Assembly: GCA_022511225.1 (NCBI GenBank)
Contig: JAFLRZ010000020.1
Coordinates: 1-35,662, forward strand
Direction of reading: 5' to 3'
DNA: 35,662 bases
From: Eubacterium sp.
GTDB taxonomy: Bacteria; Bacillota; Clostridia; Oscillospirales; Acutalibacteraceae
A program made the translations under genes and the position numbers. Positions 15,911-23,457 of this stretch are shown piece by piece. Below the pieces are notes generated by a model. The model did no database searches, was not told the origin of the DNA, and saw nothing but the letters and a program-made list of their open reading frames with translations. How positions within the stretch are numbered: the stretch's first letter is position 1; each line of letters begins with the position of its first letter.

Positions 15911-17305
15911 ATGGAAGAAAAATCTATAGGCAGATTTATTGCTGTACTGCGCAAGGCAAACGGTATGACACAAAAGCAGTTAGCTGAAAAGCTTAATGTG
16001 TCCGATAAGGCTGTCAGCCGTTGGGAAAGAGATGAAACCGCACCTGATATATCTTTGATACCAGTTATTGCGGATTTATTCGGGATAACATGTGATGAAC
16101 TTTTATGCGGTGAACGCAAATTTAAAAATGATAGTTTTTCAGGCGATGAAGAAGCATTATCTGCAAAAGGGGAAAAGCAACGCCGCAGAATTATATCGGT
16201 TAGCTTATCTGAATTTAAAAACAGAAGTATCATTTCCTGTTCGATTGCTTTTGCCGGACTGATTGTCGCAATGATATGCAATTTTGCTTTTTCCAGAGCA
16301 GTGATCGGATTTTTTATCGCTGTAATCTTTTATTTGGTTGCTACCGTATGTCATGCAATATTTGTTAATAAGGCATTTTTGTCTGTTGCGGATGATGATT
16401 TTTCGCAAACGGAAATAAAGCAATTCAAATCATCTGTTATTAAAATTGCAGAATATATTGCAGCTCTTGTTTCGTTTTTGTTCGCTGTTTCCTTGCCGCT
16501 CGTTGCAAATCCTATAAATTTTGATATGGATGCTTACATAGGTATACTTCCTGTTACGTGGCTTGCATACGGCGCGTTGTATGGTGTTGTTATATTGATA
16601 ATATGCTTCGCCGTTTGCCGTATTATCAATTTAACGCTGACCAAAAGAGGATTACTTGCCCCGAAAGTAAATAGCAGAGCGGAGCATAATTTAATACTTC
16701 TTTTAATCTGCACGGTAGTTTTATCGATTGTTGTAGCTTCTACATTCGGTATTTATTGTGCAATTACAGATGACGGCTATTGGCCCAAATTTGCAGACGG
16801 AACTGTTTTTGAGGACTATGAGAGTTTTGCCGAATTTATGGAAAAGGATGTTTCAATCGCAGAAACGAACTTAAATTCTGATAATGCAAATTCTCATATT
16901 AGCGAAGAAGTTTATTTGGAATACGATGATGACGGTTACGTAGATCCCGCTCCGAATACAGACGAATATTATAATATATATATCAGTGACTATTTTGAAG
17001 ATTCGCCTTACGGAATTTATGATGATTATGTCCGAATAGTAATAAAAGATGCTGATGGCAAAACAGTTGTTGACTGCATAAGAAAGAATGAAACAGTAGT
17101 CAACATTGAATACGGCGACTTAGAGAACGGCTTTCTGCCGATAAAGGTTGTTACCTTGGATGAGAGTGCCGTCGGTCAACAGCGTTTGATGCGTATTAAA
17201 ACAGCATTTATTGCGGTATATGTGATAGAAACGGTTATTGCGATTTTTGTTTATATTAAAAAAAGACAAAAGGTCGGCGATAAAAATACAAATTTTGGAT
17301 ATTAA
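15911..17305 (+). CDS. XRE-family HTH regulator fused to a membrane domain
   Basis: A 464-residue protein. Residues 6-65 form a classic XRE/Cro-type helix-turn-helix (RKANGMTQKQLAEKLNVSDKAVSRWERDETAPDISLIPVIADLFGITCDELL). After a linker come about four to six hydrophobic segments (residues 100-290), then an acidic Asp/Tyr-rich region (about 290-430) likely on the outside, and a final membrane segment. This is the architecture of membrane-tethered one-component regulators common in Clostridia. Ligand and targets are unknown. GGAGGG precedes the ATG. It sits between the PadR module and the T-box operon and has its own leader; the AT-rich composition resembles the accessory genes at 371-3135. 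Confidence 0.82.
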   Translation: MEEKSIGRFIAVLRKANGMTQKQLAEKLNVSDKAVSRWERDETAPDISLIPVIADLFGITCDELLCGERKFKNDSFSGDEEALSAKGEKQRRRIISVSLSEFKNRSIISCSIAFAGLIVAMICNFAFSRAVIGFFIAVIFYLVATVCHAIFVNKAFLSVADDDFSQTEIKQFKSSVIKIAEYIAALVSFLFAVSLPLVANPINFDMDAYIGILPVTWLAYGALYGVVILIICFAVCRIINLTLTKRGLLAPKVNSRAEHNLILLLICTVVLSIVVASTFGIYCAITDDGYWPKFADGTVFEDYESFAEFMEKDVSIAETNLNSDNANSHISEEVYLEYDDDGYVDPAPNTDEYYNIYISDYFEDSPYGIYDDYVRIVIKDADGKTVVDCIRKNETVVNIEYGDLENGFLPIKVVTLDESAVGQQRLMRIKTAFIAVYVIETVIAIFVYIKKRQKVGDKNTNFGY

Positions 17306-17314
17306 AAAATATTG

Positions 17315-17343
17315 TTGACAAAAGCAGTTTCTTGTATTATAAT
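17315..17343 (+). promoter_or_regulatory. Consensus sigma-A promoter of the T-box/oxidoreductase operon
   Basis: TTGACA (17315-17320), a 17-nt spacer and TATAAT (17338-17343), a perfect match at both boxes. Such strength is typical when control is by downstream attenuation. It starts 10 nt after the XRE stop codon. Confidence 0.92.
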
Positions 17344-17349
17344 CTATTC

Positions 17350-17612
17350 ACTAATAAATATTTTTAAACACGTTGACGGGAACAAAAAGCGGTTTAACCC
17401 TTTTTTCAGAGAACTGCCGGATGGTGCGAGGCAGTAAAAGATAGACCGTAATATCATCCCCGAGTGGCTGTGCTGAATTTCAGTAGGTGCAGACGGCATT
17501 CGCCGTTATCGGATAGTCTATGTTAGTAGATAAAGTGCGTTAGTGATAACGAAAAAGAGTGGTACCACGGTAATTTTATCGTCTCTTTGCCTTAGGGCAG
17601 AGAGGCGTTTTT
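17350..17612 (+). promoter_or_regulatory. T-box riboswitch, probable tRNA-Ile sensor (AUC specifier)
   Basis: The gap between 17305 and 17652 is filled by this leader. The T-box core AAGAGTGGTACCACGG is at 17555-17570; its TGGT would pair with an ACCA tRNA end. It is followed by a 12-bp terminator hairpin (17580-17607, loop TTAG) and TTTTTG. Distal stem I is seen as ACTGCC / GGCAGT around the loop GGATGGTGCGA, below it CTTTT/AAAAG with an AGAGA bulge, then GCGGTTT / AGACCGT. The lower stem CGGG/CCCG leaves AATATCATC on the 3' side of the specifier loop, reading ATC (17453-17455, Ile) followed by A. tRNA-Ile has discriminator A, consistent with TGGT. The T-box call is firm; the specifier is my manual fold. 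Confidence 0.88.
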
Positions 17613-17651
17613 GTTTTATATATAATTCTCTAAAGAAAGAGGTAGATTATA

Positions 17652-18224
17652 ATGTCAGATTTAGTAGAAATCCGTTGGCACGGCAGAGGAGGTCAGGGCG
17701 CAAAAACTGCGGCACTGCTTCTTGCCGACGTTGCATTTAAGACAGGCAGATACGTTCAGGGCTTCCCTGAATACGGTCCCGAGCGAATGGGCGCTCCGAT
17801 TACTGCATATAACAGAATAAGCTCTGATGAAATTCGTGTTCATTCAAATATCTATGAGCCTGATTTTGTCGTAGTCGTTGATTCAGGACTTCTTGACGTT
17901 GTAGACGTAACAAACGGACTTAAGGAGGAAGGCGCAATCGTTGTCAATACCTCTCGTCCGGCAGAGGAAATCCGTGCTAAACTTAACGGCTATAAGGGCA
18001 AGCTCTATTGCATCAACGCAAGAAAGGTTTCCGAGGCCTGCCTTGGCAGATATTTTCCTAATACACCAATGCTTGCAGCAATCGTTAAGGTTTCAGGCGT
18101 AATGGATAAGGAAACGTTCTTCAAGGAAATGGAAATTTCATTCCGTCATAAATTTGCATCAAAGCCGGAAGTAATAGAGGGCAATATGAACGCTCTTCAT
18201 ATGGCTTTTGATGAGCTGAAATAA
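17652..18224 (+). CDS. 2-oxoacid:ferredoxin oxidoreductase, gamma subunit
   Basis: A 190-residue subunit of the four-subunit POR/VOR/KOR family, with the gamma motif EIRWHGRGGQGAKTA (about 6-20) and GFPEYGPERMGAPITAYNRIS, which help bind CoA. The complex interconverts a 2-oxoacid plus CoA with acyl-CoA, CO2 and reduced ferredoxin in the cytoplasm. It is the first gene after the T-box, with GAGGT 9 nt before the ATG. Gene order gamma-delta-alpha-beta is that of archaeal and Thermotoga pyruvate and 2-ketoisovalerate enzymes. Sequence motifs alone cannot fix the 2-oxoacid, but the isoleucine-type leader points to branched-chain substrates. Confidence 0.9.
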   Translation: MSDLVEIRWHGRGGQGAKTAALLLADVAFKTGRYVQGFPEYGPERMGAPITAYNRISSDEIRVHSNIYEPDFVVVVDSGLLDVVDVTNGLKEEGAIVVNTSRPAEEIRAKLNGYKGKLYCINARKVSEACLGRYFPNTPMLAAIVKVSGVMDKETFFKEMEISFRHKFASKPEVIEGNMNALHMAFDELK

Positions 18225-18239
18225 GGAGGTACATAGAAT

Positions 18240-18542
18240 ATGAAATCAGATATCAATAAGCTTCATCTTGAATGCTCTTGGAAAGATTTGACCGAGGGCA
18301 TGCAGATATACGGTGAAAAGACCTCCGAATCATTTAATACAGGTGAGTGGACTTCCGTTCAGCCTGAAATTGATGAAGAAAAGTGTATTCATTGCATGAT
18401 GTGCGTTCCTGTTTGTCCCGACAGCTGTATTCCTGTTGTTGACGGCAAACGCGGTGCATTCGACTATGACCATTGTAAAGGCTGCGGCATTTGCGTAAAG
18501 AGCTGCCACGTCGGTGCAATCACTATGAAGGGGGTAAGATAA
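18240..18542 (+). CDS. 2-oxoacid:ferredoxin oxidoreductase, delta (2x[4Fe-4S]) subunit
   Basis: A 100-residue ferredoxin-like subunit that passes electrons from the catalytic core to external ferredoxin. Two cluster motifs are visible: Cys49-x2-Cys52-x2-Cys55-x3-Cys59-Pro, and Cys79-x2-Cys82-x2-Cys85-x3-Cys89. The second has His instead of the usual Pro after the last Cys. About 45 N-terminal residues precede the clusters, as in PorD/VorD proteins. AAGGAGG precedes the ATG; the alpha-subunit gene starts 1 nt after its stop, implying tight coupling. Confidence 0.93.
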   Translation: MKSDINKLHLECSWKDLTEGMQIYGEKTSESFNTGEWTSVQPEIDEEKCIHCMMCVPVCPDSCIPVVDGKRGAFDYDHCKGCGICVKSCHVGAITMKGVR

Positions 18543-18543
18543 T

Positions 18544-19725
18544 ATGGCTCGTAAGGACAGATTAAGCGGTAACGAGGCAGTAGCAGAGGCTCTTCGCCAG
18601 ATTAATCCTGACGTAATGGCGGCATTCCCGATTACTCCTTCAACCGAAATTCCACAGTATTTTTCAAAGCTTGTTGCAAACGGACAGGTTGACAGCGAGT
18701 TCATCCCTGTTGAGTCAGAGCATTCTGCAATGTCTGCAGTAATCGGTTCTCAGGCAGCAGGCGCAAGAAGTGTTACAGCTACCTCGTCAGCAGGTATGGC
18801 GCTTATGTGGGAGGAGCTTTACCTCGCCTCATCTAACAGACTTCCGTGCGTTCTTACACTTGTAAACAGAGCACTTTCAGGTCCTATTAATATCAACTGC
18901 GACCACAGTGACTCTATGGGCGCAAGAGATTCAGGCTGGATTCAGATTTACGCTGAAAACAATCAGGAGGTTTACGATAATCTTTGTATGGCATACAGAA
19001 TTGCCGAGCATAAGGACGTTATGCTTCCTGTAATGATTTGTCAGGACGGTTTCATTACCTCTCACGCAGTTGAGAATATCGTTCTCAACGAGGACGACGA
19101 GGTTAAGAATTTCGTCGGTGAGTATAATCCCGAAAATTCACTTCTCAATCCTGAATGTCCTATGGCTGTTGGTCCGTATAGCGTAAGTAACTATTACTTC
19201 GAAGCTAAGAGAGCACAGGCTGAGGCACTTAAGAATGCTAAGCAGGTTACTCTTGACGTTGCTAAGGAGTATGCAAAGTTTTCAGGCAGAGAATACGGAC
19301 TGTTTGAAGAATATAAAATGGACGATGCAGAATATGCAGTAGTTATTATCGGTTCTGCAGCAGGTACCTCAAAGGATGCTGTTGATAAGCTTCGTGCTAA
19401 CGGTGTCAAGGCAGGACTTATTAAGATAAGACTCTTCAGACCTTTCCCCGCAGAAGAAATTGCCGAAAGCCTTAAGGGTGTCAAGGCAGTAGCTCTTATG
19501 GACAGAACTGAAAGCTACAACGATAACTGCGGTCCTATCGGTGCAGAGGTAACAACTGCACTTTACAGAGCAAAGAGCGATACTCTTGCAGTAAACTACG
19601 TTTACGGTCTTGGCGGAAGAGACGTCAAGGTTTCGGATATGATTAACGTATATAACGAGCTCGAAAAGATTGCCGCTGACGGCAAGGTTGAAAATCCGTA
19701 TCGCTATATGGGCGTTAGAGAGTAA
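18544..19725 (+). CDS. 2-oxoacid:ferredoxin oxidoreductase, alpha subunit
   Basis: A 393-residue alpha subunit (domains I and II of the POR fold). Visible features: SGNEAVAEALRQINPDVMAAFPITPSTEIPQYF near the N terminus, ESEHSAMSAVIGSQAAGARSVTATSSAGMALMWEELY (the conserved region contacting TPP and the substrate), then the domain II segment AVVIIGSAAGTSKDAVDKLRANGVKAGLIKIRLFRPFP. The closest named types are PorA and VorB; the length fits either. GGGGGTAAG just before the ATG serves as ribosome site and overlaps the end of the delta gene. Confidence 0.92.
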   Translation: MARKDRLSGNEAVAEALRQINPDVMAAFPITPSTEIPQYFSKLVANGQVDSEFIPVESEHSAMSAVIGSQAAGARSVTATSSAGMALMWEELYLASSNRLPCVLTLVNRALSGPININCDHSDSMGARDSGWIQIYAENNQEVYDNLCMAYRIAEHKDVMLPVMICQDGFITSHAVENIVLNEDDEVKNFVGEYNPENSLLNPECPMAVGPYSVSNYYFEAKRAQAEALKNAKQVTLDVAKEYAKFSGREYGLFEEYKMDDAEYAVVIIGSAAGTSKDAVDKLRANGVKAGLIKIRLFRPFPAEEIAESLKGVKAVALMDRTESYNDNCGPIGAEVTTALYRAKSDTLAVNYVYGLGGRDVKVSDMINVYNELEKIAADGKVENPYRYMGVRE

Positions 19726-19738
19726 GGAGGCGATTTTA

Positions 19739-20683
19739 ATGTATAATTTCAAGGAATATGCAGGAAGAGAGGATCGCCTTGCAGGCGGTCATAGAATGTG
19801 CGCAGGCTGCGGAGGTACTATCGCAGTAAGAAACGTTCTCAAAGCAATTAAGCCTGAGGATAAGGCAGTAATCGGCAACGCTACAGGCTGTCTTGAGGTT
19901 TCAAGCTTTATGTACCCGTATACTGCTTATAAAGATAGCTATATCCATAACGCATTTGAAAATGCAGGCGCAACAATGTCAGGCGTTGAGGGGGCATATA
20001 ATGCTCTTCGCCGTAAGGGCAAGCTTGATGATACATATAAGTTCATCACTTTCGGCGGTGACGGTGGTACGTATGATATCGGCTTCCAGTCACTTTCAGG
20101 TGCAATGGAAAGAGGTCACGATATGGTTTACGTATGCTACGATAACGGAGCATATATGAACACGGGTATTCAGCGTTCCTCAGCAACACCTATGTTTGCC
20201 GATACAACTACTACTCCTGTCGGCAAGGCAGTTCCTACAGGTAAATCTCAGTACAGAAAAGACCTCTCTGCAATAATCGCAGAGCATCAGGTGCCTTACG
20301 TTGCACAGACTACTTTTGTTCAGAATTTCAGAGATTTGTACAGAAAGAGCGAAAAAGCTATCTACACAAAGGGCGCTGCTTTTCTTAACATTATGGCTCC
20401 GTGTCCGAGAGGCTGGAGATATAATACACCCGATATTATGGAGATATGCAAGTTAGCGGTAGAAACTCGCTACTGGCCGCTTTTTGAGGTAATTGACGGC
20501 AAGTGGATACTCAACTATCAGCCTAAAAATTACGTTCCTATCGAGGAATGGCTCATTAAGCAGGGTAGATTCAAGCATATGTTCAAGCCGCAGAATGAGT
20601 GGATGATCGAAGAATTCCAAAAAGAAGTTGACAGAAGATGGGATCAGCTTCTCGCTCGCTGCACAGAAGTCCGCGGCGCATAA
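19739..20683 (+). CDS. 2-oxoacid:ferredoxin oxidoreductase, beta (TPP) subunit
   Basis: The 314-residue thiamine-diphosphate subunit with one [4Fe-4S] cluster. CAGC (21-24) plus Cys51 and a later Cys supply the cluster; GDGGTYDIGFQSL with YDNGAYMNTG (107-145) is the GDG-x-N TPP/Mg motif. The ORF is open from 19670, but AAGGAGG sits 7 nt before ATG 19739, 13 nt after the alpha stop. The C-terminal part (NEWMIEEFQKEVDRRWDQL) matches the PorB/VorB-partner family. It completes the operon; a dispersed repeat hairpin and a bidirectional terminator follow. Working in reverse with reduced ferredoxin it would carboxylate branched acyl-CoA toward Ile/Val/Leu precursors (inference from the leader). Confidence 0.93.
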   Translation: MYNFKEYAGREDRLAGGHRMCAGCGGTIAVRNVLKAIKPEDKAVIGNATGCLEVSSFMYPYTAYKDSYIHNAFENAGATMSGVEGAYNALRRKGKLDDTYKFITFGGDGGTYDIGFQSLSGAMERGHDMVYVCYDNGAYMNTGIQRSSATPMFADTTTTPVGKAVPTGKSQYRKDLSAIIAEHQVPYVAQTTFVQNFRDLYRKSEKAIYTKGAAFLNIMAPCPRGWRYNTPDIMEICKLAVETRYWPLFEVIDGKWILNYQPKNYVPIEEWLIKQGRFKHMFKPQNEWMIEEFQKEVDRRWDQLLARCTEVRGA

Positions 20684-20757: not shown

Positions 20758-20801
20758 TTTATCAAAGTATGAACGAGCATTGCTCGTCCGCCAAATAACT
20801 A

Positions 20802-20838
20802 AAAAAGCTGTATCGACAATCAGTCGATACAGCTTTTT
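20802..20838. terminator. Bidirectional Rho-independent terminator
   Basis: Stem AAAAGCTGTATCGAC, loop AATCA, GTCGATACAGCTTTT, with A and T runs on the two sides. It serves both the oxidoreductase operon (plus) and the trpB-type gene (minus, stop at 20864). Confidence 0.93.
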
Positions 20839-20863
20839 CTCGTTTATTTTTCTGTTTTGCAGA

Positions 20864-22240
20864 TTAAAGATCAACTTTAGGAAGTCCTGCAAAGCCAACA
20901 GCAAGCTCCTCATCAGTAGGAATATAATCACCCATCTTGCCGTCATTGAAGCTCTGATATGCGTACATATCAAAGTAGCCTGTTCCGGTAAGACCGAATA
21001 CGATTGTCTTTTCCTCGCCTGTTTCCTTGCACTTAAGAGCTTCATCAATAGCAACACGGATTGCGTGACTGCTTTCCGGAGCAGGAAGAATACCCTCAAC
21101 TCTTGCAAATTGTGTAGCAGCATCAAATACTGCCGTCTGCTCAACTGCAACTGCTTCCATATACTTGTCGTGATAAAGCTGAGAAAGAGTAGAGCTCATA
21201 CCGTGGAAACGAAGACCACCTGCGTGGTTTGCTGACGGAATAAATCCACTGCCGAGTGTGTACATCTTTGCAAGAGGGCAAATCATACCTGTATCAGCAA
21301 AGTCATAAGCAAACTTACCGCGGGTAAAGCTTGGACAGCTTGCAGGCTCAACAGCAATAATTCTGTAATCAGCCTCACCTCTGAGCTTTTCACCCATAAA
21401 CGGAGAAATAAGACCGCCAAGATTTGAGCCACCTCCTGCACAACCGATAATTATATCGGGCTTGATGTCGTATTTATCGAGAGCAATTTTTGTTTCAAGA
21501 CCTATGATAGACTGGTGAAGAAGCACCTGATTGAGAACTGAGCCGAGAACGTATCTGTATCCCTCGTTAGTTGTAGCAACCTCAACAGCCTCAGAAATAG
21601 CACAACCAAGGCTTCCTGTAGTACCGGGATGCTCAGCAAGAATTTTCTTACCGATTTCTGTGTTTTCTGATGGGGAAGGAGTAACGTCTGCGCCGTATGT
21701 TCTCATAACCTCGCGTCTAAACGGCTTCTGCTCGTAAGAGCATTTTACCATAAATACCTTACAGTCAAGACCGAAATATGAGCAAGCCATTGAAAGAGCT
21801 GTGCCCCACTGACCTGCACCTGTTTCGGTTGTAACGCCCTTAAGTCCCTGCTTCTTTGCATAGTATGCCTGTGCAATAGCAGAATTAAGTTTGTGGCTTC
21901 CCGATGTGTTGTTACCCTCAAATTTGTAGTAAATCTTAGCAGGTGTGCCGAGTGCCTTTTCAAGATAGTAAGCACGAACAAGCGGTGCCGGACGATACAT
22001 CTTGTAGAAGTCGAGTATTTCTTCAGGAATATCAATAAATTTTGTATCCTCATCAAGCTCCTGCTTAACAAGTTCTTCACAGAAAATCGGAGCCAGCTCC
22101 TCTGCCTTAAGAGGCTGAAGCGTTGCAGGGTTGAGAAGCGGTGCCGGTTTAGTTTTCATATCTGCACGCAAATTGTACCACTGCTTTGGCATTTCGCTTT
22201 CATCAAGATAAATTTTGTATGGTATTTTCTTTTCTTCCAT
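20864..22240 (-). CDS. trpB: TrpB2-type tryptophan synthase beta chain (PLP enzyme)
   Basis: A 458-residue fold-type II PLP enzyme that condenses indole with serine. PLP lysine is Lys117 in NTSGSHKLNSA, ETGAGQWGTALS supplies the catalytic-Glu region, and GCAGGGSNLGG (266-276) binds the phosphate. The length, the extended N terminus and the segment around MYRPAPLVRAYYLEKAL mark the TrpB2 (TIGR01415-like) branch, not the shorter TrpB1 that pairs with TrpA. No trpA or other trp gene is near, so indole salvage or a serine-linked side role is more likely than the de novo pathway (inference). AAAGGAG lies 8 nt before the ATG. Its promoter has a dyad over the -10. Confidence 0.9.
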   Translation of the reverse strand: MEEKKIPYKIYLDESEMPKQWYNLRADMKTKPAPLLNPATLQPLKAEELAPIFCEELVKQELDEDTKFIDIPEEILDFYKMYRPAPLVRAYYLEKALGTPAKIYYKFEGNNTSGSHKLNSAIAQAYYAKKQGLKGVTTETGAGQWGTALSMACSYFGLDCKVFMVKCSYEQKPFRREVMRTYGADVTPSPSENTEIGKKILAEHPGTTGSLGCAISEAVEVATTNEGYRYVLGSVLNQVLLHQSIIGLETKIALDKYDIKPDIIIGCAGGGSNLGGLISPFMGEKLRGEADYRIIAVEPASCPSFTRGKFAYDFADTGMICPLAKMYTLGSGFIPSANHAGGLRFHGMSSTLSQLYHDKYMEAVAVEQTAVFDAATQFARVEGILPAPESSHAIRVAIDEALKCKETGEEKTIVFGLTGTGYFDMYAYQSFNDGKMGDYIPTDEELAVGFAGLPKVDL

Positions 22241-22374: not shown

Positions 22375-23457
22375 ATGTCAATTTCCGTGATGCTCAAGCC
22401 TGCTTCAGGCATTTGCAATCTTAAATGTGAATATTGCTTTTACCGTTCACTGACTGAAAGCCGTGCCGAAAGCTTAAAAGGCTTTATGAGCCTTGATACT
22501 GCTAAATCGGTAATTGCATCAGCACTCGATTTTGCAAAGGGGAGTGAAGTCATTTTTACCTTTCAGGGCGGTGAGCCGCTTCTCAGAGGTCTTGACTTTT
22601 TCAAAGAATTTGTTGACTGCGCAAATAGCAGTAATAAGAATAAAGCAAGGATTTCATACTGCCTGCAAACAAACGGCACATTGATAGACGAGGAGTATGC
22701 AAGGTTTTTCAAAGAAAACAGATTTCTTATCGGTGTGTCGCTTGACGGCGACAGTGAAATAAATAAATACAGAGTGTATCCCGACGGAAGCGACTCATTT
22801 GATGACGTTATAAAAGGAATAAATCTGCTGAAAAAATATGACGTAACATTCAATATTCTGTCCGTACTTACAAAAAATACTGCACTGAATTTCAGAAAAG
22901 CATACAGGTTTTTCAAGCAGAATGATCTCAGGTATCTTCAGTTTATTCCCTGCCTTAAGCCGTTTGATGAAAGCTTTGACGAAAGCATTTATATGAATAA
23001 TGATGACTATGAGTACTTCCTGAAAAAATGCTTTAATATCTATTTCAACGATTATATGAGAGGGGACTACGTGTCGGTTCGCTCCTTCGATAATTATATG
23101 TCGCTGATGAAGGGCGGCAATGCAGAACAGTGCGGTATGAACGGCTTTTGCTCAACCCAGTTTGTAGTCGAGGGTGATGGAAGCGTCTATCCCTGTGATT
23201 TCTACTGCACGGATGACTGGTATCTCGGCAACATTAACGAAAGCTCCTTTGATGAGCTTTATCATGGCGAAAGAGCCGTAGAATTTTTAAAAAATTCTTT
23301 TTTGGTTGACGATAAATGCAAGTCGTGTGATTATTTCTATATTTGCAGGGGTGGCGGATGCAAGCGAAACCGCGTATCTGCCGACTTTTGCAAAGCGTAT
23401 AAAAATTTTTTTTCTGACTGTGTATACAAAATGCAGCAGATGAAAGGTAGGTCATAA
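22375..23457 (+). CDS. Radical SAM enzyme, anaerobic sulfatase-maturase (anSME)-like, SPASM
   Basis: A 360-residue enzyme. The radical SAM cluster motif is Cys14-x3-Cys18-x2-Cys21 (GICNLKCEYCFYR), with the GGEP motif in FTFQGGEPLLRG. The C-terminal SPASM region carries CGMNGFCSTQFVVEGDGSVYPCDFYCTDDWYLGNI and CKSCDYFYICRGGGCKR, ligands for two auxiliary [4Fe-4S] clusters. PCDFY-x4-W-x-LGNI is characteristic of anSMEs, which oxidise Cys or Ser to formylglycine in sulfatases. No sulfatase is nearby; the only partner is the lipoprotein gene 1 nt downstream. The target may be elsewhere in the genome. AAGGAG precedes the ATG. Confidence 0.9.
   Translation: MSISVMLKPASGICNLKCEYCFYRSLTESRAESLKGFMSLDTAKSVIASALDFAKGSEVIFTFQGGEPLLRGLDFFKEFVDCANSSNKNKARISYCLQTNGTLIDEEYARFFKENRFLIGVSLDGDSEINKYRVYPDGSDSFDDVIKGINLLKKYDVTFNILSVLTKNTALNFRKAYRFFKQNDLRYLQFIPCLKPFDESFDESIYMNNDDYEYFLKKCFNIYFNDYMRGDYVSVRSFDNYMSLMKGGNAEQCGMNGFCSTQFVVEGDGSVYPCDFYCTDDWYLGNINESSFDELYHGERAVEFLKNSFLVDDKCKSCDYFYICRGGGCKRNRVSADFCKAYKNFFSDCVYKMQQMKGRS

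Follow-up and report, generated by a model that had tools for sequence, protein, structure and literature searches.

In a 35,662-nucleotide stretch of DNA from Eubacterium sp. (contig JAFLRZ010000020.1 of assembly GCA_022511225.1; hereafter the window), a four-gene operon for a 2-oxoacid:ferredoxin oxidoreductase (OFOR) is preceded by a T-box leader RNA that, with near certainty, carries an isoleucine specifier. What is new here is the conserved link between an isoleucine T-box and an OFOR operon, which recurs in several families of anaerobic bacteria. Reversible ferredoxin-dependent OFORs are usually linked to amino-acid breakdown. T-boxes are described, in the available part of PMC2494555, at genes for synthetases, biosynthesis and transport, that is, at genes that are wanted when an amino acid is short; a conserved, isoleucine-only T-box is hard to square with degradation. 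No report of T-box control of a ferredoxin oxidoreductase was found in the openly licensed literature, and earlier T-box surveys may mention it. The reversible oxidoreductase, lying as it does behind a conserved isoleucine sensor, is a candidate for the step from 2-methylbutyrate to isoleucine and, if this interpretation is true, DNA would reveal which members of a bidirectional enzyme family run towards synthesis.

Leader, specifier codon and operon

The leader was identified with cmscan and Rfam 15 as the single T-box reported in the window, a full-length match to RF00230 (model positions 1–219) at 17364–17589 on the forward strand that scores 134.6 bits (gathering score 93; E-value 5.2e-30). 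The T-box core AGAGTGGTACCACGG, with its TGGT bulge, occupies 17556–17570 and forms the 5' half of the antiterminator. It is followed by an intrinsic terminator at 17580–17617, consisting of a hairpin (17580–17607) and a T run, the 5' arm of which overlaps the 3' arm of the antiterminator in the T-box core helix, so that the two structures compete. The terminator hairpin is exceptionally stable (-20.9 kcal/mol, z -6.75, equalled by 0 of 200 shuffles), and terminator-like matches as a class number 8, compared with 2.8 expected. Neither the antiterminator segment (z -0.18) nor the segment with stem I (z 0.08) stands out in stability when folded freely, and the assignment of these two elements rests on the covariance match. 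Upstream, a sigma-70-type promoter, TTGACA-17 nt-TATAAT, lies at 17315–17343 and agrees with the consensus at 12 of 12 positions; since promoter-like matches as a class are no commoner than in shuffled sequence (6 found, 6.6 expected), only the perfection of this match and its location carry weight. An initial sequence-only reading had described a consensus promoter, a T-box core and a terminator before a gamma-delta-alpha-beta 2-oxoacid oxidoreductase operon; all of these were recovered, with coordinates that differ by no more than one base, and the Rfam search that it had proposed gave a match above the gathering score.

The T-box ends in this strong terminator, 62 nt before the operon, which consists of four consecutive forward-strand frames. 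The gamma subunit (17652–18224, 190 aa) matches TIGR02175 with 211.6 bits (cut-off 81.1) and PF01558, and the delta subunit (18240–18542, 100 aa), a protein of the 4Fe-4S ferredoxin type, matches TIGR02179 with 88.6 bits (cut-off 60.05) and PF12838. The alpha subunit (18544–19725, 393 aa) contains PF01855 and PF17147 and scores 491.4 bits with NF040682, below the cut-off of 550; the thiamine diphosphate-binding beta subunit (19739–20683, 314 aa; the start is an ATG picked by eye within a longer frame that runs from 19670) contains PF02775 and scores 332.2 bits with NF008819, below the cut-off of 405. Together, the subunit models and domains identify a four-subunit OFOR of the pyruvate (POR) or 2-ketoisovalerate (VOR) type.

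The specifier was read by a rule calibrated on the other T-boxes of the same genome (2.23 Mb in 48 contigs, 98.65% complete), which holds eight at E 0.001. The rule takes the triplet that lies 6 nt before the conserved GAG following the specifier loop (7 nt in pheS) and yields GUA for valS, AAC for aspS, CUC for leuA, ACC for thrS, UGC for cysE-cysS, UUC for pheS, UGG for trpE and AUC for the OFOR operon, in direct agreement with the gene in 6 of the 7 other T-boxes. The remaining case is the aspS leader (L003, 1501–1721, reverse strand), whose AAC specifies asparagine, as expected if the aspartyl-tRNA synthetase also serves tRNA-Asn. The leuA and aspS genes were identified by NCBIfam and the other T-box genes were named by eye from their translations; for leuA, the cmscan alignment has a 2-nt insertion at the specifier, and CUC is the reading by the GAG rule. 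The codon in the OFOR leader, ATC at 17453–17455, coincides with that proposed in the initial reading from manual folding. In an alignment of 49 leaders (47 from genomes of the window's genus, plus L132 and L155 from close named relatives), ATC fills the specifier columns in 48 of 48 informative rows; the flanking TC and GA columns are likewise invariant, and other flanking columns vary.

Three other registers were considered and rejected. Tyrosine (TAT) is broken in L031 and leucine (CTC) is what most members of the genus have where the window has ATC; in both cases the calibrated distance gives ATC. Serine (TCN) is kept as such within the genus and is ruled out by the calibrated distance alone. 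A specifier for an amino acid outside the branched-chain group, a finding that would have told against the initial reading, is excluded by the calibration, the leader alignment and the wider scan described below. None of the eight T-boxes found at E 0.001 precedes an ileS (the presence of ileS was assumed, as the gene itself was not searched for), and a tRNA-Ile pattern gave 0 matches in the window genome. The OFOR leader resembles the isoleucine T-boxes found at ileS, of the transcription-antitermination class, in its stem I with an AUC specifier, its T-box core with the TGGT bulge and the overlap between antiterminator and terminator. It differs from them in its target, which is a ferredoxin-dependent oxidoreductase and not a transporter, a synthetase or one of the classical ilv genes.

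Conservation and history of the switch

Of 148 related genomes, 57 have an alpha-subunit match at E 1e-60, and 54 of these belong to the genus, which is represented by 80 genomes. Upstream sequence was available for 53 of these 54 operons (in G014 the contig begins inside the alpha gene), and 52 of the 53 were usable, one locus (L073, G021) ending too early. A T-box core with the TGGT bulge precedes all 52, and the specifier is ATC in 51 of 51 readable loci (L059 is truncated). The latter count came from a script looking for ATC itself, a bias of which the 49-leader alignment is free; five genus loci beyond that alignment were read separately. In two genomes (G042 C8 and G068 C88) an in-frame TGA lies within the alpha match, with the T-box still upstream.

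A strict motif search had recovered only L132 and L155, both close to the genus, and had suggested that the link is confined to it. This was overturned by an Rfam T-box of 104.5 bits in front of the operon of Faecalicatena contorta (L135) and by a profile search of 81 upstream regions. The wider sample comprises the best 80 loci from named genomes by similarity to a Peptoclostridium protein, so the resulting 16 leaders in 81 regions do not represent a frequency. Ten of the 16 were seeds, and six (L056, L057, L101, L117, L122 and L129) were recovered in the first round at E < 1e-3; once all 16 had been built into the model for a second round, the weakest leader scored 120 bits, compared with 3.1 for the best of the decoys, of which there were three per locus. 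In all 16 leaders ATC stands 6 nt before GAG. Fourteen are outside the genus, in Syntrophomonas metagenome-assembled genomes (L114, L118), Agathobaculum desmolans (L145), Emergencia (L101), Dorea (L117), Faecalicatena (L135), G123 (L056), G141 (L057) and at L108–L111, L122 and L129. Their alpha subunits are 62–76% identical to that of the window, compared with at least 83% for full-length matches within the genus.

Thirteen of the 14 outside leaders (all except L110) were scored with the Rfam model and reached 48.5–104.5 bits, with E-values of 1.4e-7 or better. These leaders are divergent, and eleven of the 13 fall short of the gathering score of 93 (L101, L108, L109, L111, L114, L118, L122, L129, L145, L056 and L057, with 48.5–85.8 bits), and in these the specifier region, the core and a terminator-like end are visible by eye. 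The Rfam cut-off thus hides most of the divergent leaders, which annotation at that cut-off would miss.

When the presence of a T-box (17 rows) was mapped on an alpha-subunit tree with 84 sequences, the label required 7 changes, at least 5 of them by well-supported branches, which indicates that the T-box has been kept or regained in separate lineages, each time with an isoleucine specifier. The label is clustered on the tree (0 of 500 shuffles gave as few changes; near-copies contribute to this) and falls into three groups. One part of the tree holds 12 of the loci, the window groups with L132 and L155, and Faecalicatena and Dorea form a pair. By eye, the cores differ accordingly: the window reads AGAGTGGTACCACGG, 8 of the 12 loci read GGTGGTAxA and the other 4 GGTGGTT, and the pair reads GGTGGTTGxGGA. 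No T-box was detected by Rfam or profile search at L133, which groups with the window. This locus retains GGCAGAGAGGCGTTTTTTG (GGCAGAGAGGCG plus a T run) before the operon, resembling the end of the window terminator and probably representing a relic of a recently lost switch.

Direction and substrate of the enzyme

The gamma and delta subunits pass broad POR/VOR subfamily models, and they are the only subunits to pass cut-offs. The alpha subunit scores 491.4 with PorA, 388 with a POR alpha model (cut-off 625) and 337.4 with the 2-ketoisovalerate alpha model (cut-off 646), and the beta subunit 332.2 with PorB and 288.4 with the 3-methyl-2-oxobutanoate dehydrogenase beta model NF008818 (cut-off 405 for both), so that neither the PorA/PorB equivalogs nor the VOR alpha and beta families claim the protein. 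The VOR models rest on archaeal sequences. Similar scores were obtained for three other T-box-associated alpha subunits and for the Peptoclostridium alpha, which lacks a T-box. The enzyme is of the POR/VOR type, and as judged from its sequence the models do not tell which.

The solved four-subunit POR in PDB entry 9bt4, presumably from Methanosarcina acetivorans, gives alignments of 311.6 bits with alpha and 252.1 bits with beta, each covering most of the subunit. The window enzyme differs from it in falling below the PorA/PorB cut-offs; moreover, another open frame in the same genome, 1174 aa long and thus as large as a single-chain POR, matches POR_N more strongly. At the pyruvate-pocket positions of the D. 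africanus enzyme given in PMC5020499, an alignment by eye places Arg109, Ile115 and Tyr212 of alpha and Val54 of beta, and the Asn is kept. These residues do not discriminate between substrates: every one of the 16 T-box loci has alpha Ile115 and Tyr212, but so do 49 and 39, respectively, of 67 others.

As far as the accessible text of PMC13290082 goes, a four-gene enzyme of C. sporogenes was active on each of the three branched-chain 2-oxoacids, ketoisoleucine included, as well as on pyruvate. Two other enzymes with VOR-like sequences turned out to favour aromatic acids, so sequence alone should not be trusted for substrate. The C. sporogenes enzyme, from the VOR/porA cluster CLOSPO_00146-00149, is a four-gene OFOR like that of the window; the comparison is by description only, and the cluster differs in being placed in amino-acid oxidation, with no T-box mentioned in the same part of that source.

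On the basis of the leader architecture, we infer the following response to tRNA. Transcription would start just upstream of 17364, and the T-box would pair with tRNA-Ile at the AUC codon. With charged tRNA-Ile, the terminator at 17580–17617 would form and the operon would be off; with uncharged tRNA-Ile, the acceptor end would stabilise the antiterminator and gamma-delta-alpha-beta would be transcribed. The enzyme would then make a 2-oxoacid precursor of isoleucine by carboxylating an acyl-CoA with CO2 and reduced ferredoxin. Because the isoleucine-only T-box is conserved, the enzyme probably has such an anabolic role and runs in the carboxylating direction; the suggestion that isoleucine control points to synthesis, made originally from the window alone, is strengthened by the recurrence of the ATC T-box at this operon in several families. 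The most likely substrate would be 2-methylbutyryl-CoA from salvaged 2-methylbutyrate, giving 3-methyl-2-oxopentanoate, which would be transaminated to isoleucine; as the main substrate it is plausible, with about an even chance of being the right one. The available parts of two studies describe 2-methylbutyrate as an isoleucine precursor in rumen fermentation (PMC7356843) and as a probable one in Methanobrevibacter ruminantium (PMC2812497). The proposed reaction and its physiological logic are the same, the difference being that in those parts no gene or regulator is tied to the reaction. Also in favour, the window genome has an acyl-CoA-ligase-like gene next in line to iorA and an iorB-like gene, possibly a second case of the same style, and three AMP-binding matches in all. 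Nothing usable on the nutrition of R. bromii was found in the openly licensed literature. A bolder and somewhat doubtful extension is that a dispersed, hitherto unrecognised isoleucine T-box regulon in Clostridia marks enzymes that make isoleucine from environmental acids in gut and rumen by ferredoxin-driven CO2 fixation, in which case the presence or absence of the T-box would tell biosynthetic from catabolic use.

The window genome encodes threonine ammonia-lyase (472.7 bits, cut-off 378.75), acetolactate synthase, leuA, ketol-acid reductoisomerase (KARI) and dihydroxyacid dehydratase (IlvD), with leuC and leuD beside ilvBN as read by eye. Because these are kept, the OFOR would be an extra route to isoleucine and not a replacement. 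The notion that the operon replaces threonine deaminase was rejected on the same grounds across the genus, where IlvA was found at E 1e-60 in 67 of 80 genomes, including 50 of the 54 with the operon. KARI was unmatched at E 1e-50 in 19 of the 80, and the operon is present in 6 of these 19 compared with 48 of the other 61; where neither IlvA (E 1e-60) nor KARI (E 1e-50, list read by eye) was matched, it is present in 2 of 10 genomes, compared with 52 of the other 70. IlvD, searched for in 32 genomes, 30 of them of the genus, was not found in 9 of those 30. Many of the genomes are drafts, and the counts ignore relatedness. The two operon-bearing genomes without an IlvA or KARI match, G030 and G036, were dismissed as proof of a 2-methylbutyrate route: both keep IlvD, and since several relatives, such as G023, G029 and G053, have ilvA close to ilvC on a single contig, one missing stretch of draft sequence may explain both absences.

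Several observations weigh against 2-methylbutyrate salvage, or against synthesis altogether. The alpha and beta subunits are nearer to the pyruvate-type than to the 2-ketoisovalerate-type models, all scores being below cut-off, and the C. sporogenes cluster that resembles the operon by description is assigned to oxidation. Eight genus members without IlvA, KARI and IlvD matches also lack the operon, which would be expected to survive in them if it served 2-methylbutyrate salvage alone. All 14 T-box hosts outside the genus have KARI, as do 10 of the 14 T-box-less hosts put through the same search, at E 1e-50 or better. No gene for a 2-methylbutyrate-activating ligase lies inside the operon, and the operon's neighbours are not conserved, the largest other cluster covering 9 of 84 sequences. 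Finally, no T-box leader was found at 65 of the 81 scanned loci, among them those of Peptoclostridium acidaminophilum, Clostridium thailandense, Fusibacter, Dethiosulfatibacter and Cetobacterium; nine of the 80 wider loci have fewer than 1400 bases before alpha (71 have enough), and of these nine the profile search omitted two, whereas the other seven, with little upstream sequence, are counted among the 65, so that absence there is not fully tested. Some of the organisms without a T-box are amino-acid fermenters.

The operon mostly occurs together with the isoleucine pathway, a distribution that suits 2-oxobutyrate synthesis at least as well as 2-methylbutyrate salvage. With the same switch and direction, the enzyme would convert propionyl-CoA, CO2 and reduced ferredoxin to 2-oxobutyrate, which would enter the ilvBN-ilvC-ilvD pathway and spare threonine. 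Carboxylation of propionyl-CoA accounts for the isoleucine T-box equally well, and the strict specificity for isoleucine in all readable leaders, never valine or leucine, speaks for it, as do the nearness to pyruvate-type models, the KARI genes of all T-box hosts outside the genus and the eight genomes that lack pathway matches and operon alike. We nevertheless regard it as unlikely, if deserving of serious attention: with threonine ammonia-lyase in the window genome, G123 and G141, 2-oxobutyrate would already be available, and G056 (a draft in 420 contigs) has the operon and IlvA although neither KARI nor IlvD was found.

The T-box-less loci would fit a catabolic enzyme, one that oxidises branched-chain 2-oxoacids to acyl-CoA, or pyruvate, and whose T-box is an accident or meets another need, such as 2-methylbutyryl-CoA for branched fatty acids; frames resembling an aminotransferase and a hydroxyacid dehydrogenase near the operon of G141, seen by eye, point the same way. 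Induction of such an enzyme on isoleucine shortage would, however, destroy isoleucine precursors, and together with the conservation of the isoleucine T-box across several families this makes a catabolic role quite improbable. Least probable is a reserve pyruvate synthase, its isoleucine control mirroring a general biosynthetic demand for pyruvate. Higher scores with PorA/PorB than with 2-ketoisovalerate models, and three pocket positions that by eye resemble those of 9bt4 (the same Ile and Val, Tyr for Phe), favour it; the genome already has the 1174-aa frame with its stronger POR_N match, and an isoleucine-specific sensor would be an odd choice for pyruvate supply.

Other genes and features

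Elsewhere in the window genome (G000, C48:10000-20000; L171, 3356–7393), the acyl-CoA-ligase-like gene, iorA and the iorB-like gene, the last recognised by eye, stand in a row on one strand and are a candidate for reductive carboxylation of aryl acids. In the window, the gene directly upstream of the T-box promoter (15911–17305, forward strand) encodes a 464-aa protein with an N-terminal HTH_3 domain, the C-terminal part of which has no family match in Pfam or NCBIfam. At 22375–23457 on the forward strand lies a radical SAM/SPASM protein near the anaerobic sulfatase maturases, below their cut-offs, and after it comes a 298-aa protein with no match in Pfam or NCBIfam. Convergent with the operon is a TrpB-like pyridoxal phosphate enzyme (20864–22240, reverse strand; NF009057, 685 bits), and a terminator scan placed a bidirectional terminator-like hairpin between the two at 20801–20839.

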